Notes under the pieces: generated by a model
Database searches by the model: none
Told to the model about the DNA's origin: nothing
What the model saw: the letters and a program-made list of their open reading frames with translations, nothing else
Translations under genes and position numbers: made by a program
In this document: piece by piece, positions 53,682 through 60,602 of the stretch
How the letters are laid out: each line of letters starts with the position of its first letter
Position numbering within the stretch: the stretch's first letter is position 1
Assembly: GCF_018687895.1 (NCBI RefSeq)
Contig: NZ_CP061307.1
Location: forward strand, 248,001 to 312,000
Direction: 5' to 3'
Length of the DNA stretch: 64,000 nt
Origin: Polynucleobacter sp. JS-JIR-II-50
Lineage (GTDB): Bacteria > Pseudomonadota > Gammaproteobacteria > Burkholderiales > Burkholderiaceae

Positions 53682-55076
53682 ATGACCCAAAAAATAACTT
53701 CCAAACCGTTCGATGTAACCCACTCTATTCAAATCCCAATAGGGATCATTTTTTTACAGTGCGTAACTTTCGTTATGCTCTACTCAGTCTGGATCTTGCC
53801 CGAGATCGCCGCCTGGAGAAATACATCCCTAGTAATTGGTGCGGCCCTAGGTTTGTATGTGAGCTATCAATATCGATTCCTATTACTTAACAAAGTGGCT
53901 CTACCGATTTGGCTTGTCGGAATGCTTTTTATATGGGCAAGCTTTCATTTACTTTTTCTGTCTCAAAATCCAGTTGTGCAGTTGATCGAATTCAAGGGTA
54001 TCTGGAAAAGAGCATTGCTCGCTGTCATTTTTGCGTTGGGTCTGGGGCTATCGATCGCAAACAATACCGAGAGAATAAAAAAATGGGCATGGCTGTTGAT
54101 CTATTTAGGTCTATTGATGCCCACCTTGATCTATTTGTTGAAATGGACTCTCACCTATTATGGCCAAAGCATCTTTGGACTTGAATCAGTTCCCCTCTTT
54201 CTAAAGGTCTATCCAGGTTCCCAGCTCTTTTACGTGCCAAAAACAGATTATGTGGTTTTTTGCTTACCCACCCTTGCAGTTGCTTTGGGGCAAATACTCA
54301 CTTTATTGCAAGAAAAGCGGATTAACTGGGCTCAGTTATTTATCTATGGCGCCTCTATTGCCGCGGTATCTTTTGTCTTTTATGGCCAAAATATAAAAAA
54401 TGGATTTGTTTACGAGGCACTACTTTTCATACTTTTTTTATTGATGATGGCGGTCTTGATCAAGAAACACTGGACTCCAATCAAGGTGGGAATTATTGCT
54501 CTTATACTTATTGGAGTGGGTTTTGTGGGGTACAAGCATATTCAACAAAATGATTCTTGGGCTAGCTTTGCTGCAGACTCCAAAATTGCAGTTCAACTAG
54601 ATCGTTACCAAGAATGGAAATTTAATGGAGAAAAGGGCTACCCACTCAATGAGCTAGGTAAGCCTGTGTCTGCAACCAATTATGAGAGGATTGCCTGGGG
54701 ATTGGTAGGTATAAAACTTTTTCAAGAAAATCTCTTGGGGTATGGGCTGATTGAAAATTCTTTTGGGCCATTGGTAAATAAAAAATGGCCAGAAGCAAGT
54801 GTGCACTTAACTCATGCCCACAGCGGCTGGTTGGATCTAGCTCTTGGATTAGGATTGCCTGGCATCGCATTAGTTCTGGTTGCTTTGATTTTGGCGCTAC
54901 AACTGGCTCGTGATTCAACCGCGCCATGGAAAAATCTTGGAAGATGGGTGCTTTTATCGACACTCTTGCTATGGTGTACTACCGAAGTATCAAATAATGG
55001 AAACTTTGACCCACTCCTTTTTTGGATCGTATTAACTGCTAGCCTAGCTTTAAGGGTTAACCATAAATCCAATTAA
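53682..55076 (+). CDS. O-antigen ligase family protein
   Basis: A 464-residue membrane protein with about ten to twelve hydrophobic segments and a large periplasmic loop near residues 290-385. HLTHAHSGWLDLALGLGLPG is the Wzy_C/WaaL signature with the His-x-His/His-S motif. It either joins O-antigen to lipid A-core (WaaL) or polymerises repeat units (Wzy); sequence alone does not decide. No flippase gene is nearby. Confidence 0.8.
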   Translation: MTQKITSKPFDVTHSIQIPIGIIFLQCVTFVMLYSVWILPEIAAWRNTSLVIGAALGLYVSYQYRFLLLNKVALPIWLVGMLFIWASFHLLFLSQNPVVQLIEFKGIWKRALLAVIFALGLGLSIANNTERIKKWAWLLIYLGLLMPTLIYLLKWTLTYYGQSIFGLESVPLFLKVYPGSQLFYVPKTDYVVFCLPTLAVALGQILTLLQEKRINWAQLFIYGASIAAVSFVFYGQNIKNGFVYEALLFILFLLMMAVLIKKHWTPIKVGIIALILIGVGFVGYKHIQQNDSWASFAADSKIAVQLDRYQEWKFNGEKGYPLNELGKPVSATNYERIAWGLVGIKLFQENLLGYGLIENSFGPLVNKKWPEASVHLTHAHSGWLDLALGLGLPGIALVLVALILALQLARDSTAPWKNLGRWVLLSTLLLWCTTEVSNNGNFDPLLFWIVLTASLALRVNHKSN

Positions 55077-55265: not shown

Positions 55266-56498
55266 ATGAGTGATAACGCATCTGCGTCTCCAGAGCTAAA
55301 TGGCGACCATGAAATCTCTTTTCTAGACATAGTCAATTTTCTGACTGTTTTTTGGAAAAAGCTCGTCATTGCAGCTCTAGTCGGTGCTGCATTGGGTTTA
55401 GCGGGCTGGTTTGTCTTGGGGAGTTATTCTGCGGAATACGTGCTCCTCAATAACACCAACACCAACACCAACACCAACACCAACACCAACACCAACACCA
55501 ACACCAACACCAACACCAACACCTATGGGCTCGATCTACTGTCCTGGAAGGTAATTCAAAAAAGTCTGCCTAATTTAGCTGCTCAAATAGTGGAAGACGG
55601 TAAGGCACCCGAGGGCCAAGCCGGGCTTTATCGCACCCTTTCTAATGATCAGTGGTGGCAAAAAAATGCAATACCGAGTTACGCTCTTTCAAAGGCGGAT
55701 ACTAAGGATCTGGCGGGAATCAGTAAAGAATTTGATGGCGCTAGCACAACGATCTTGAGTGTGGCCGTCAACGCTAGTGGCTCCACTAAAGAGGGTGCAA
55801 TAGACGCAGTGAGAGTGGCTGCCCAGTTCTTGCGATCTGGAGGAGCTTATCTACAGATACGCAGTATGCTAAATGCTTATGAGGGCGAAGTTATCAGTGC
55901 CGCGGGAGAAATTCAAAGAAAAATCACCAGTACGCAAATTGAGATGGGTTATCAGCAGCAGCGAGCGAAGTCCTTGGAGGAGCTGTACAAGCGCTATCCT
56001 AGTAACTCTAGTGTTGGTCAGCAAGTAGTAGACCCTAAAGAATCTGGCGCCAAGTACCTCTCCATTACTACGCAAATTATTGCGGCAAATAATGATATTA
56101 ACCAGTCCAAGGAAGCATTAAGTAGGATGGACGATCGCTTGGCTCAGATCTCTTTAACCAAATTATTTCTCGATGAGGCGCTTCCTAAAATAGAAACCAC
56201 CTTTGACGGCTTAGTTTTAGATAAAGAGCTCCTAGCAATTGAGGCAAATCTGCGTGACAAAATTGGCAAAGATGACCCCAAACAAAAAGAAATCTTAGAC
56301 CAAATCCGCTCACAACTTTTAATGATTCAAGCTCGTTTTACAAAGGGCTTAGAGGCTAATACGGCGCCGACTAGTAGTGGCAAAAAAGGCATGATCAAAA
56401 GTGTTGCAGGCGGATTGGCTGGCGGATTTTTCCTGGTGCTCATGTTGCTCTTAGGTCAACGCGTGTGGACGAGCATTAAAACCGGTGGCGCTAAGTGA
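55266..56498 (+). CDS. wzz: Wzz-like chain-length determinant with (NT)12 tract
   Basis: A 410-residue polysaccharide co-polymerase. Membrane helices at about residues 33-54 (LVIAALVGAALGLAGWFVLG) and 378-397 (SVAGGLAGGFFLVLMLLLG) flank a periplasmic part with coiled-coil stretches (EIQRKITSTQIEMGYQQQRAK, IAANNDINQSKEALSRMDD). The N-terminal FLDIVNFLTVFWKKL is typical of Wzz/PCP proteins. Residues 63-86 are twelve Asn-Thr pairs from a hexamer repeat, placed just after helix one in the periplasm. No tyrosine-kinase domain is present. It regulates O-antigen or capsule length. Confidence 0.8.
   Translation: MSDNASASPELNGDHEISFLDIVNFLTVFWKKLVIAALVGAALGLAGWFVLGSYSAEYVLLNNTNTNTNTNTNTNTNTNTNTNTNTYGLDLLSWKVIQKSLPNLAAQIVEDGKAPEGQAGLYRTLSNDQWWQKNAIPSYALSKADTKDLAGISKEFDGASTTILSVAVNASGSTKEGAIDAVRVAAQFLRSGGAYLQIRSMLNAYEGEVISAAGEIQRKITSTQIEMGYQQQRAKSLEELYKRYPSNSSVGQQVVDPKESGAKYLSITTQIIAANNDINQSKEALSRMDDRLAQISLTKLFLDEALPKIETTFDGLVLDKELLAIEANLRDKIGKDDPKQKEILDQIRSQLLMIQARFTKGLEANTAPTSSGKKGMIKSVAGGLAGGFFLVLMLLLGQRVWTSIKTGGAK
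55452..55523 (+). repeat. (AACACC)12 hexanucleotide tandem repeat in wzz
   Basis: Twelve perfect copies of AACACC, 72 bases, with no mismatch. The repeat is in phase with the reading frame (Asn-Thr), so copy-number change keeps the frame and only alters linker length. Confidence 0.98.
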
Positions 56499-56688: not shown

Positions 56689-57687
56689 ATGTTTGAAAAT
56701 AAAAGTATTTTAATTACTGGCGGCACTGGTTCTTTCGGGCATGCATTTGTTGCCATGACGTTGGAAAAATTTAAGCCAAAAAAATTGATCATTTTTTCCC
56801 GCGATGAAATGAAACAGTGGGAAATGGCTAAAATTTATGGGGCTGATCCACGTATTCGTTTCTTTATTGGTGATGTCAGGGATAAAGAGAGATTGCACAG
56901 AGCTCTGCATGGCATCGATTTTGTGGTGCATGCAGCCGCGACTAAAATTGTTCCTACTGCTGAATACAATCCTTTCGAGTGTGTCAAGACTAATATTAAT
57001 GGCGCCATGAATTTGATTGATGCTTGCATAGACCAAGGTATTAAGAAAGTTGTTGCTTTATCAACGGATAAGGCCAGCAGCCCAATTAATTTATATGGCG
57101 CTACAAAGTTGGCGTCCGATAAACTATTTGTCGCTGGAAATTCTTATGCTGGTGGTCAAGAGACTAGATTTTCTGTTGTTCGCTATGGAAATGTAATGGG
57201 GTCTCGTGGATCCGTTATTCCTTTCTTTATGTCTCAAGCAGATTCAGGAAGGCTTCCAATTACTGATACGCGTATGACGCGTTTTATGATTAGTTTAGAG
57301 CAGGGAGTAGAGTTGGTTTGGCACGCTTTTCAGGATATGGTTGGTGGCGAGGTTTATGTAAAAAAGATCCCCTCGATGAATATTGTGGATATTGCGAAGG
57401 CTGTCGCTCCTAATGCCGAACACGAAATTATTGGCATTCGACCAGGGGAAAAGCTCCATGAGCAGATGATTAGCCCAGAGGATTCCTATCATACTTATGA
57501 GCATCCTGAATATTTTAAAATTTTGCCCGCCATCCATCAGTGGAGTTCTGACCCACTGCGCATTAAAAATGGAGTGAAGGTAGTAGAAGGCTTTAGTTAT
57601 GACTCCTTGAGTAATCAACAAAAGATGAGTGTGTTAGAGCTTCAGGGTTGGATAGAAAGTCACCGTGCAAAAATTGGGGCAATTTAG
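56689..57687 (+). CDS. pseB: UDP-N-acetylglucosamine 4,6-dehydratase (inverting)
   Basis: A 332-residue SDR enzyme, first step to pseudaminic acid. ILITGGTGSFGHAFVAMTL is the nucleotide loop, STDKASSPINLYGATKLASDKL holds the active-site Asp-Lys and YxxxK, and RYGNVMGSRGSVIPFF follows. The PseB type is supported by the following pseC. It begins an AT-richer stretch. Confidence 0.93.
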   Translation: MFENKSILITGGTGSFGHAFVAMTLEKFKPKKLIIFSRDEMKQWEMAKIYGADPRIRFFIGDVRDKERLHRALHGIDFVVHAAATKIVPTAEYNPFECVKTNINGAMNLIDACIDQGIKKVVALSTDKASSPINLYGATKLASDKLFVAGNSYAGGQETRFSVVRYGNVMGSRGSVIPFFMSQADSGRLPITDTRMTRFMISLEQGVELVWHAFQDMVGGEVYVKKIPSMNIVDIAKAVAPNAEHEIIGIRPGEKLHEQMISPEDSYHTYEHPEYFKILPAIHQWSSDPLRIKNGVKVVEGFSYDSLSNQQKMSVLELQGWIESHRAKIGAI

Positions 57688-57689
57688 TA

Positions 57690-58871
57690 GTGAGAAATAT
57701 CCCATATGGCCGACAAGATATCTCAGCTGGGGATATTGACGCTGTTATTAATGTCTTAAGATCTGATTGGCTTACCCAAGGGCCAGTTGTTCCGCAGTTT
57801 GAAAATGCTATTACAGAGTACTGTGGCGCCAATTTTGCCATAGCTGTAAATAGTGCAACATCCGCCCTTCATATCGGCTGCTTATCTCTGGGATTGGGGC
57901 CTGGTGATTGGCTTTGGACATCTCCGATATCATTTGTCGCCTCGGCTAATTGCGGTTTGTATTGTGGCGCGCGAGTTGATTTTATTGATATCGATCCTCT
58001 TACATACAACGTCTCTATGGGCGCCTTGGAAGAAAAACTTCGTATAGCAAAAAAGAATGGCGCCTTACCCAAGGTGGTTGTACCCGTGCATTTTGCAGGT
58101 CAATCTTGCGATATGAGAAGAGTGCGGCAGTTGGCCGATGAATACAACTTTAAAATTATCGAGGATGCATCACATGCCATTGGTGCAAGATACCAAAATG
58201 AACCAGTAGGAAATTGTCGATATTCCGATATTACCGTTTTTAGTTTTCATCCAGTCAAAATTATTACTACAGGTGAGGGTGGGGTTGCCGTTACAAATGA
58301 TGCGAAGTTGGCAAGTCGCATGCAAATACTTAGAAGCCATGGAATTACCCGAAATTCAAGCGCAATGCTGAGTCAAAATGTTGGCCCTTGGTACTATGAG
58401 CAAATTGAGCTTGGCTTTAATTACAGGATGACAGATATTCAAGCGGCCTTGGGATTAAGTCAGCTACATAGACTGGATAAATTTGTTGATGCTCGGCAAA
58501 GTATCGCTAAAAAATATAATATTGCTTTAGCTTCTTTGCCGGTGACTATCCCCTGGCAAGATCCAGATAGTTATTCCAGTTTTCATCTTTATGTAATTCG
58601 ATTAAAGACGGATGCGATTAAAAAGACTAGGCTTGAAGTTTTTGAGAGTATGCGTGCCCTGGGTGTCGGGGTAAATGTCCACTATATTCCAATCTACCAT
58701 CAACCTTTTTTCAAGAATCGTCATGGATTTGATATTGGTTACTGCCCTAATGCGGAGGCGTATTACAGGGAGGCAATCTCTTTGCCTATGTACCCTTCAT
58801 TAGTGGATGCTGACTTTGATTATGTGGTTGCCTCACTCCGTCAAGCTTTAGGGATTAAATATCAGTCATGA
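57690..58871 (+). CDS. pseC: UDP-4-amino-4,6-dideoxy-N-acetyl-altrosamine transaminase
   Basis: A 393-residue DegT-family PLP aminotransferase. PYGRQDISAGDIDAV is the PseC start, SWLTQGPVVPQFE follows, VAVNSATSALHIGCL and EDASHAIGARYQNEPVG are conserved, and FHPVKIITTGEGG carries the PLP Lys. I chose the GTG at 57690, two bases after the pseB stop, as the frame's earlier start overlaps pseB by 40 bases. It overlaps pseF by four bases. Confidence 0.93.
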   Translation: MRNIPYGRQDISAGDIDAVINVLRSDWLTQGPVVPQFENAITEYCGANFAIAVNSATSALHIGCLSLGLGPGDWLWTSPISFVASANCGLYCGARVDFIDIDPLTYNVSMGALEEKLRIAKKNGALPKVVVPVHFAGQSCDMRRVRQLADEYNFKIIEDASHAIGARYQNEPVGNCRYSDITVFSFHPVKIITTGEGGVAVTNDAKLASRMQILRSHGITRNSSAMLSQNVGPWYYEQIELGFNYRMTDIQAALGLSQLHRLDKFVDARQSIAKKYNIALASLPVTIPWQDPDSYSSFHLYVIRLKTDAIKKTRLEVFESMRALGVGVNVHYIPIYHQPFFKNRHGFDIGYCPNAEAYYREAISLPMYPSLVDADFDYVVASLRQALGIKYQS

Positions 58872-59593
58872 CGCATCAATCGCTCGGTAAAATTTTGGTG
58901 CTGATTCCTGCAAAGGCTGGTTCGGTACGCTTGCCTCGTAAGAATATTCGAAAGTTTTTAGGGGTTAGCCTTCTTGGGCGCGCGATTAAGCGAGCTCAAA
59001 ATCTTTCTTTTATTGATCGAATATGTGTCAGCACCGAGGATGATGAGGTGGCCGATGAGGCACGGAAGTTCAATGTCGATATTCCTTTTATGCGCCCTGA
59101 AGTTTTATCAAAAGATCCTGCGGGTGTAGTTGAGGTGGCTTTGCATGCTCTCGAATGGTTTGAGTTACATGGTGAGGATTTTGATACTCTGATTATTTTG
59201 CTACCAACCTCCCCTTTTTGTAAAAGTTCGCATATTGAAGGTGCAGTGGATGTGTATTTAAAAACTGGCGCGAAGTTTCTCATGAGTGTCTCACGCGAAG
59301 TGCATTCACCCTTTAGTAGCCTTATTTTAGATGATGGATGGCTAACACCGCTCCATCCAGAATACTTAAATCAAACCGGGTCTCGAAGCAATGCGCTAGT
59401 TCCTTTGTTGGCAAGGTGCAATGGCGCAATAACGATCTGCAATGTTGAGGAGTTTAAAAAAACTAAGAATTATTATTCTTATCCTCTGGCGGCCTATGAG
59501 ATGCCACTAGAGCGCAGTATTGATATTGATACCGAGCTTGAGTTTCAATTTGCTGAGTTCTTGGCAGAGAGGAATCCAAGTCTTGCCGACTAA
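58868..59593 (+). CDS. pseF: Pseudaminic acid cytidylyltransferase
   Basis: A 241-residue CMP-sugar synthetase. ILVLIPAKAGSVRLPRKNIR is the nucleotide loop. ILLPTSPFCKSSHIEGAVDVY and VSREVHSPF follow, and SIDIDTELEFQFAE is the C-terminal metal-site block. It activates the nonulosonic acid with CTP. Identification as PseF, not NeuA, relies on pseB and pseC beside it. It overlaps pseG by 11 bases. Confidence 0.9.
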   Translation: MTHQSLGKILVLIPAKAGSVRLPRKNIRKFLGVSLLGRAIKRAQNLSFIDRICVSTEDDEVADEARKFNVDIPFMRPEVLSKDPAGVVEVALHALEWFELHGEDFDTLIILLPTSPFCKSSHIEGAVDVYLKTGAKFLMSVSREVHSPFSSLILDDGWLTPLHPEYLNQTGSRSNALVPLLARCNGAITICNVEEFKKTKNYYSYPLAAYEMPLERSIDIDTELEFQFAEFLAERNPSLAD

Positions 59594-60602
59594 AATTATA
59601 TTTAGAGCAAATGCCAACAATAAGATTGGGACTGGTCATGTTATGAGGTGCCTAGCCTTAGCTAATGCATGCCGTAATTTTGGAGCAAAAACCCAGTTCA
59701 TTGGTAGCATCGAAGATGAGGTGCTAGTTCAGCGCATAATTTCCAATAAGCATGAATTTATATCATTAGATTCTGGGTTCGGGTGCGCCTGGCCAGAGAG
59801 TTTGGATGATTATTTTGGGTGGGTTGTGCTTGATGGATATGATTTTGATTCAAGTGATCAGGTAAATATTCAAAAAAAAGGATATAAGTTAATGGTTATT
59901 GACGATATGGCCCATCTTGATATTTATTATGCTGACGTAATCCTTAATCAAAATTTTTCAGCGCATCCTGGTCATTATCGTTTGGGGTCTGCGGCTCAAA
60001 TGTTGATGGGGCCCAATTATGCGTTATTACGAAAAGAATTTTTAGGGAGAAGTCAGTCTCTGCGCCAAAAGGCAGAGAATCGCCTATTAATTACCTTGGG
60101 GGGTTCCGATCCTCAGGGGGTTATCTTTCAACTTCTAGATGCATTAGATCTCGTTGATCAAGTAAAGCTGGAAATAAAGGTGATTGCAGGTTCTAGCTCA
60201 TTTCATCTAAATCGACTAAAGGATTATGCAGATCATATGCAAAAAACTGGTGTTCATTACATAGAGATCGAGCGCTTTACCAACGATATGCCAAGCAAAA
60301 TGCTTTGGGCGGATTTTGCAATTATTGCAGGAGGCAGCACAACTTTAGAGGCTGCATATATGGGATTGCCTGTCCTTGTAATAACGATGGCCAATAATCA
60401 GGCTGCTATTGCTGAGGCAATGGGGGCGGCGGGAGCGGCAATACCGTTGGGCTGGCATTCTGATCTAAGTGCTAGATCTATTGCGAATGAAATTTACAAT
60501 TTAGTCGTTAATGATCAAGTTAGGCATGGAATATCCTTGAGTGCGCGCACCCTCGTGGATGGCTATGGGGCAGATAGAGTTGCCCAAATTTTACTAAATT
60601 AA
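59583..60602 (+). CDS. pseG: UDP-2,4-diacetamido-2,4,6-trideoxy-beta-L-altropyranose hydrolase
   Basis: A 339-residue GT-B-like hydrolase that removes UDP in the pseudaminic pathway. IIFRANANNKIGTGHVMRCLALA is the PseG signature with the catalytic His. LMVIDDMAHLDIYYADVILNQN and LITLGGSDPQG follow, then IIAGGSTTLEAAYMGLPVLVI. The TTG at 59583 was chosen, overlapping pseF, since upstream codons are pseF in another frame. Confidence 0.9.
   Translation: MPTKIIFRANANNKIGTGHVMRCLALANACRNFGAKTQFIGSIEDEVLVQRIISNKHEFISLDSGFGCAWPESLDDYFGWVVLDGYDFDSSDQVNIQKKGYKLMVIDDMAHLDIYYADVILNQNFSAHPGHYRLGSAAQMLMGPNYALLRKEFLGRSQSLRQKAENRLLITLGGSDPQGVIFQLLDALDLVDQVKLEIKVIAGSSSFHLNRLKDYADHMQKTGVHYIEIERFTNDMPSKMLWADFAIIAGGSTTLEAAYMGLPVLVITMANNQAAIAEAMGAAGAAIPLGWHSDLSARSIANEIYNLVVNDQVRHGISLSARTLVDGYGADRVAQILLN

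Follow-up and report, generated by a model that had tools for sequence, protein, structure and literature searches.

Asn-coding microsatellites in a predicted periplasmic loop of a divergent Wzz protein of Polynucleobacter: a possible dial for O-antigen length

The locus and its genes

The window (the whole 64,000-nucleotide stretch of DNA analysed) lies in a single-contig Polynucleobacter genome of 2.07 Mb and carries a gene for a Wzz-type polysaccharide co-polymerase, located between the gene of a Wzy_C-domain protein and a group of pseudaminic-acid genes (Table 1). The products PseB, PseC and PseG scored above the NCBIfam cut-offs and PseF below its own (129.1 vs 205.7 bits). Relatives of the co-polymerase were found at 22 named loci, 15 in Polynucleobacter, five in metagenome bins whose names stop at a higher rank, one in a Ferrovum-labelled bin and one in Limnohabitans. 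A Wzy_C homolog lies no more than 3 kb before the wzz match at 16 of these loci, on the opposite strand in three of the 16.

Table 1. Features of the wzz locus in the window
Feature	Position	Strand	Evidence
Wzy_C-domain protein (O-antigen polymerase or ligase type), directly upstream of wzz	53682..55076	+	PF04932, 33.2 bits (cut-off 31.7)
Long-class Wzz-type polysaccharide co-polymerase; ORF of 410 aa from ATG to TGA	55266..56498	+	ORF, homologs, profile chain
Predicted TM1, about residues 33-52, K31/K32 just before	55362..55421	+	Kyte-Doolittle peak 33-51
Strand-like YSAEYVLLN, residues 54-62, between TM1 and tract	55425..55451	+	alignment; putative secondary structure
(AACACC)12 tract encoding (Asn-Thr)12, residues 63-86	55452..55523	+	repeat finder and translation
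Conserved helix-like YGLDLLSWKVIQKSLPNLAAQIVE, residues 87-110, directly after tract	55524..55595	+	alignment; putative helix
Predicted TM2, about residues 378-398, with overlapping GxxxG at 382/383, P368 and K373/K374 before	56397..56459	+	hydropathy, alignment
Pseudaminic-acid genes pseB, pseC, pseF-like and pseG, downstream of wzz	56689..60602	+	NCBIfam

The co-polymerase gene contains, in frame, a perfect AACACC array (12.0 copies, period 6, 100% match in a Tandem Repeats Finder run on the window). The twelve exact in-frame copies reported by the initial annotation, and their translation as (Asn-Thr)12, were thereby confirmed. The tract is beyond chance, because the next longest perfect repeat with a unit of 2-12 nucleotides, in the window and 400 kb sampled from the rest of this genome's sequence collection (464 kb in all), spans just 26 bp. 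In the genome sample, AAC accounts for 36% of Asn codons and ACC for 30% of Thr codons; at this codon use, the probability that an (NT)12 peptide would be written in all 24 codons as AAC and ACC is 2e-12, and the tract is, therefore, a DNA-level microsatellite, more than an Asn-Thr peptide. The gene thus shows one of the hallmarks of simple sequence repeat (SSR) contingency loci, a pure short repeat above the genome background in a surface-glycan gene. An assembly artefact was considered and rejected, as such tracts occur in different isolate assemblies, in genomes of a single contig and also in metagenome bins.

The order of elements in the N-terminal part of the protein is TM1, the conserved strand-like YSAEYVLLN, the tract and the conserved helix-like LDLLSWKVIQKSLPNLA, in which P102, L104 and A105 are invariant in 23 alignment rows. 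The tract had been placed right after the first membrane helix; it does lie past TM1, but the YSAEYVLLN segment intervenes.

A divergent Wzz protein

The initial annotation had taken the protein for a Wzz-type chain-length regulator with the tract in the periplasm. Membership of the family could be traced in two steps. The genus also has a class of shorter Wzz proteins (about 290 aa), and a profile comparison of the long class with this short class gave a probability of 98.2% (E 3.9e-14, 262 columns). The short-class profile in turn retrieved E. coli WzzB (PDB 6rbg) at E 2.4e-6, with a probability of 93.9% and E 1.5e-7 over 265 columns in the profile alignment, and 24 of the 25 short-class members scanned matched Pfam Wzz at E ≤ 0.01. 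The direct profile comparison of the long class with WzzB was not significant (probability 0.3%, E 0.19), and PDB profile searches with the long class returned no Wzz among their matches. The window protein scored under the Pfam PF02706 (Wzz) cut-off (13.0 vs 25.5 bits), which is a detection threshold and no biological definition, and gave no NCBIfam match at E ≤ 0.001; Pfam Wzz was matched at E ≤ 1 by 12 of 23 long-class members (best E 0.0012).

Hydropathy above 1.6 (19-residue windows) is confined to residues 22-54 and 375-400, which gives, with a presumed orientation, the Wzz arrangement of two terminal TM helices around a large periplasmic segment. A Lys before TM1, Pro and Lys before TM2 and a GxxxG within TM2 have been described as features of Wzz proteins (PMC7809406), and all are present (Table 1), K31 being almost invariant in the long-class alignment. 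On the basis of the two-step profile chain to E. coli WzzB, together with topology and motifs, we call the 410-aa window protein a divergent Wzz. Both parts of the earlier claim are thus upheld, the first for a divergent member of the family and the second by the predicted topology. The protein would share with the class 1 co-polymerases (E. coli WzzB, FepE and WzzE) the two TM helices flanking one periplasmic domain, the Lys/Pro/GxxxG motifs and a Wzy_C neighbour in a glycan cluster. With 410 residues, counting the tract, it exceeds WzzB (326) by 84 and, unlike the WzzB of E. coli K-12, has a microsatellite loop.

Through the short class, the YSAEYVLLN segment aligns to where the periplasmic domain of WzzB begins, and the short-class equivalent of the loop aligns to about residues 66-81 of WzzB, ahead of the segment SDLQETLIGRFS. 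We infer that this stretch of WzzB, which leads to helix alpha-2, is helix alpha-1, an assignment that depends, like the probable inward-facing position of the loop, on an alignment of low identity.

Recurrence of the tract in Polynucleobacter

With the protein of a relative as query, matches were found in 33 of 186 genomes of the genus, a few of them over the N-terminal part only. The long class was tabulated in 36 rows (33 from the genus, one from the Ferrovum-labelled bin and two from Limnohabitans), leaving out a 198-aa fragment at a contig end (L023), a gene remnant (L027), the short-class genes, the fragments G109:C25, C81 and the G128 pieces, and a paralog (G108:C1:30098). A tract occupies the loop after the first periplasmic strand in 24 of these 36 rows. 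AACACC tracts are found in nine genomes, one in each, with 8, 9, 12, 12, 12, 13, 13, 15 and 15 copies; the other fillings of the loop are AAT (6-13 copies), AAC (7 copies), AATACC (6 copies), Asn-Ser sequences and decayed forms. The linker of L009 has a Thr-Ser-Ala form, and those of L005, L015 and L002_b are decayed. The site is, thus, a recurrent repeat site across the genus, occupied by several different units, and linker length ranges from 4 to 53 residues across the long-class rows. The longest linker is that of a metagenome bin (L014, genome G051), with 53 residues, nearly all Asn or Ser, encoded by AACAGC and AACAAT units.

The remaining 12 rows are tract-free, with a four-residue linker in ten of them, and the tract is evidently not required, because all 12 are still open frames. 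This favours an explanation by neutral slippage, according to which the loop tolerates insertions of many lengths composed of small polar residues, and microsatellites seeded by Asn codons grow, shrink, decay and vanish there with no effect on the glycan; we consider this reading a close rival to a function in O-antigen length control and almost equally probable. The distribution of the repeats in the genus speaks against it. A scan of all 186 genomes for (AACACC)4, (AAT)7 and (AAC)7 yielded 22 loci, and 19 of these lie in the Wzz loop: 10 of the 11 (AACACC)4 loci (one of the ten at a contig end), all six (AAT)7 loci and three of the five (AAC)7 loci (one of the three in a short-class gene). 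Asn-coding microsatellites of the three units scanned are, therefore, mostly located in the Wzz loop in Polynucleobacter. The three patterns were picked for their presence in wzz, so the scan locates these repeats and does not describe the spread of repeats in general. Two control patterns, (AAG)7 and AACACC read backwards, were found in none of the 186 genomes. The longest open frames at the three exceptions encode Pro-Thr, Gln and Thr runs, in other reading frames of the units. Neutral slippage would also have to account for the absence of any other perfect repeat above 26 bp from the 464 kb of the window genome, for the fact that several different DNA units mostly yield Asn, Ser or Thr, and for linkers as long as that of L014.

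The sole locus outside wzz with at least four AACACC copies (L039:1501-1560, genome G176) encodes its Pro-Thr run in a putative secreted protein.

The near constancy of residue class over different units would also be expected of a selected spacer or hydrophilic cushion of roughly constant function, which might, for example, accommodate Wzy or the growing glycan in the part of the cavity near the membrane. The length would then be set passively by slippage, and variation within species would be rare. The short class, in which the DNA repeats are short or mixed, has an Asn-rich loop too, a point in favour of this explanation. A spacer of constant function is, however, difficult to reconcile with linkers of 4 to 53 residues that differ in length in all 25 of the closest pairs listed (see below), and we regard it as improbable.

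The loop in the short class and in other genera

In many single-contig genomes, with exceptions, short- and long-class genes are found at similar coordinates (about 285-316 kb). Runs of 4-7 consecutive Asn, encoded mostly by AAC and AAT, occur in the same loop in 10 of 30 short-class proteins, a set from which weaker matches were left out and 25 of which were used for the Pfam scan. Outside the genus, 30 Wzc-length loci from other genera of the family were considered, nine of which gave no readable ORF of the right kind; six of the other 21 (L140, L151-L153, L160 and L161) have, as judged by eye, at least three consecutive Asn in the loop that follows the first strand. No Asn run was present in the part examined of nine short Wzz proteins of genus g11. 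Given the Asn runs in the short class and in other genera, the loop looks widely permissive, a point in favour of neutral slippage, and the pure microsatellite looks like the Polynucleobacter extreme of such a loop.

Slippage and turnover of the repeat

The initial annotation proposed that hexamer slippage would change the length of the linker in frame, and suggested counting the repeats in related genomes. The count (8 to 15 copies in the nine AACACC tracts) agrees with this proposal, and in-frame length change is seen between species, with strong DNA-level signs of slippage turnover. In the nine tracts, all 103 Asn codons are AAC and 108 of the 109 Thr codons are ACC. Divergence outside the tract was compared among the genes of 26 of the 36 rows. 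In each of the 25 closest ortholog pairs listed, which are not independent of one another, it amounts to at least 40% at fourfold sites and the length of the linker is different, and the unit itself varies between groups. A static tract would gather synonymous changes; the purity of the tracts despite the divergence of the genes around them shows that, in these nine AACACC genes, the in-frame gain and loss of units outpaces the accumulation of point mutations.

A maximum-likelihood tree built with the linker omitted requires at least six changes between presence and absence of the tract and, for four tract states, at least 13 (mean of 19.3 for shuffled states); several of its branches are weak, some rows are long-branched and the Asn/Ser row L014 was labelled as poly-Asn. 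The well-supported branches alone force two changes for the tract-free state, three for poly-Asn and five for Asn-Thr. Copy number differs between relatives, as in SSR contingency loci, but between species only. The collections, with one genome per species and mostly the same assemblies behind the named loci and the genus genomes, gave no same-species pair for a comparison of copy number, and no relative was found among viral contigs for this purpose. Every unit is 3 or 6 bp long and the frame is kept, so the on/off behaviour of contingency loci is not seen here; phase variation by frameshift was rejected on the ground that all units are multiples of 3.

In L015, one of the two long-class genes of genome G109, the tract reads as decayed: Thr has given way to Ile or Ala and synonymous changes are absent, as would be expected if the identity of the residues were of little importance. 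This is again what would be expected from neutral slippage.

Possible modification of the Asn-Thr run

The suggestion, also made earlier, that the Asn-Thr run might be modified gained little support. N-glycosylation was rejected, as (NT)n has no N-X-S/T sequon inside and the single sequon at the tract, N62-N63-T64, is at its edge. An O-glycosylation target of a PglL-type transferase, with tract length setting the number of sites, would suit a Thr-rich, presumably flexible periplasmic stretch, and the Neisseria PglL has been described as acting on flexible low-complexity regions (PMC3643930). The same source stresses an Ala/Ser/Pro context, however, and the linker contains no more than two Ser or Thr in nine of the ten rows labelled as poly-Asn, so that we consider this function very improbable. 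A search for PglL_A gave no match in the genome, but neither did it in the control genomes, so that this negative carries no weight.

A possible role in O-antigen length control

Inference from the sequence leads to a reading that we favour tentatively, at somewhat under an even chance: the tract would be a replication-slippage microsatellite acting as a dial for O-antigen length, in the loop between the first periplasmic strand of a divergent Wzz and the helix that follows it. The loop, probably flexible, uncharged, polar and disordered, would lie in the base of the bell at the position of WzzB helix alpha-1, i.e. on its inner wall. The gain or loss of Asn-Thr pairs might then alter the free cavity or the packing of subunits, and this change might move the modal length of the O-antigen in small heritable steps. 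A 2026 study of FepE and WzzB locates alpha-1 at the inner wall of the bell and argues that chain length is determined by the volume of the cavity (PMC13161533), and in-frame insertions of 5 aa in the Wzz of Shigella flexneri have been reported to form five classes differing in their effect on chain length (PMC4574919). As a rough scale, if the loop points inward and the assembly is an octamer (an assumption from E. coli), one hexamer would occupy about 230 cubic angstrom per subunit and about 1840 per octamer (from standard residue volumes), or roughly six hydrated sugars as measured in PMC13161533. On the same assumptions, twelve copies would correspond to 56% of the cavity volume of WzzB and 15% of that of FepE (cavity volumes from PMC13161533).

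A bolder form of this dial can be conceived, which we think rather unlikely: an inner-wall Wzz loop refilled by self-renewing Asn-coding microsatellites would serve as a heritable O-antigen dial, keeping populations constantly mixed in their glycan coats against phages and grazers, with the change in ring volume per unit matching approximately one O-antigen unit of sugar.

How Wzz sets the length of the O-antigen is a standing question, made testable by a natural series of loops of 4 to 53 residues, and the repeat may itself generate variants of loop length. If chain length tracks copy number, the series would provide a direct test of the cavity-volume model, and the co-polymerase would vary in a graded, in-frame manner, unlike on/off phase variation. 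Otherwise, the locus would clearly exemplify a coding microsatellite that is maintained in a single permissive loop throughout a genus, and a neutral outcome would bear on the persistence of low-complexity stretches in compact 2-Mb genomes.

Comparison with known systems

By analogy, the nearest working analogue is the heptad ruler of the Helicobacter pylori fucosyltransferases FutA and FutB, which likewise belongs to proteins of LPS synthesis and is made of repeats translated in frame; FutA and FutB gain or lose copies through slippage or recombination, and the size of fucosylated O-antigen chains follows the copy number (PMC2583950). FutA and FutB are glycosyltransferases whose units of seven residues lie in a C-terminal region for which dimerisation has been proposed, whereas the repeat considered here has units of 3 or 6 bp and is located in a co-polymerase loop. 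The FutA/FutB variation has been seen within a patient and in passages (PMC2583950), whereas that of the Wzz tract is seen between species only. Heritable switching of O-antigen chain length is also known from opvAB in Salmonella, where it is controlled by Dam methylation (PMC3350482; PMC4652898).

The titles and opening abstract lines of the open-access literature matches listed contained no pointer to a coding repeat in Wzz, and no Polynucleobacter study of O-antigen or Wzz bearing on the tract was among these matches.

SSR contingency loci typically toggle genes on and off through a frameshift or a promoter change. Those of Campylobacter and Neisseria likewise have a microsatellite in a surface-glycan gene (PMC8437040; PMC4085013), but all units of the Wzz tracts are multiples of 3, so protein size alone can change.

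Additional copies and remnants

Several genomes carry more than one long-class gene. In G108, a truncated copy of 141 aa with the decayed linker NNASTNSNSNSNTTYA (L002:10-432) precedes the full copy with eight AACACC units by about 1 kb. G109 (L015, L030 and L033) has two long wzz genes, one with the decayed tract and the other with 13 AACACC copies and cut by a contig end, and another of its contigs ends within a further AACACC tract. Limnohabitans sp. 2KL-51 (L109) has two divergent long-class genes close together on opposite strands, both of them without a tract. In G073, an 81-aa ORF (L027:1501-1743) begins like a long Wzz, with part of TM1, and, as judged by eye, continues directly into the C-terminal end of that protein. 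It lies some 2.5 kb ahead of a match to the short-class wzz and has the appearance of a remnant that a deletion left behind when one Wzz class took the place of the other.
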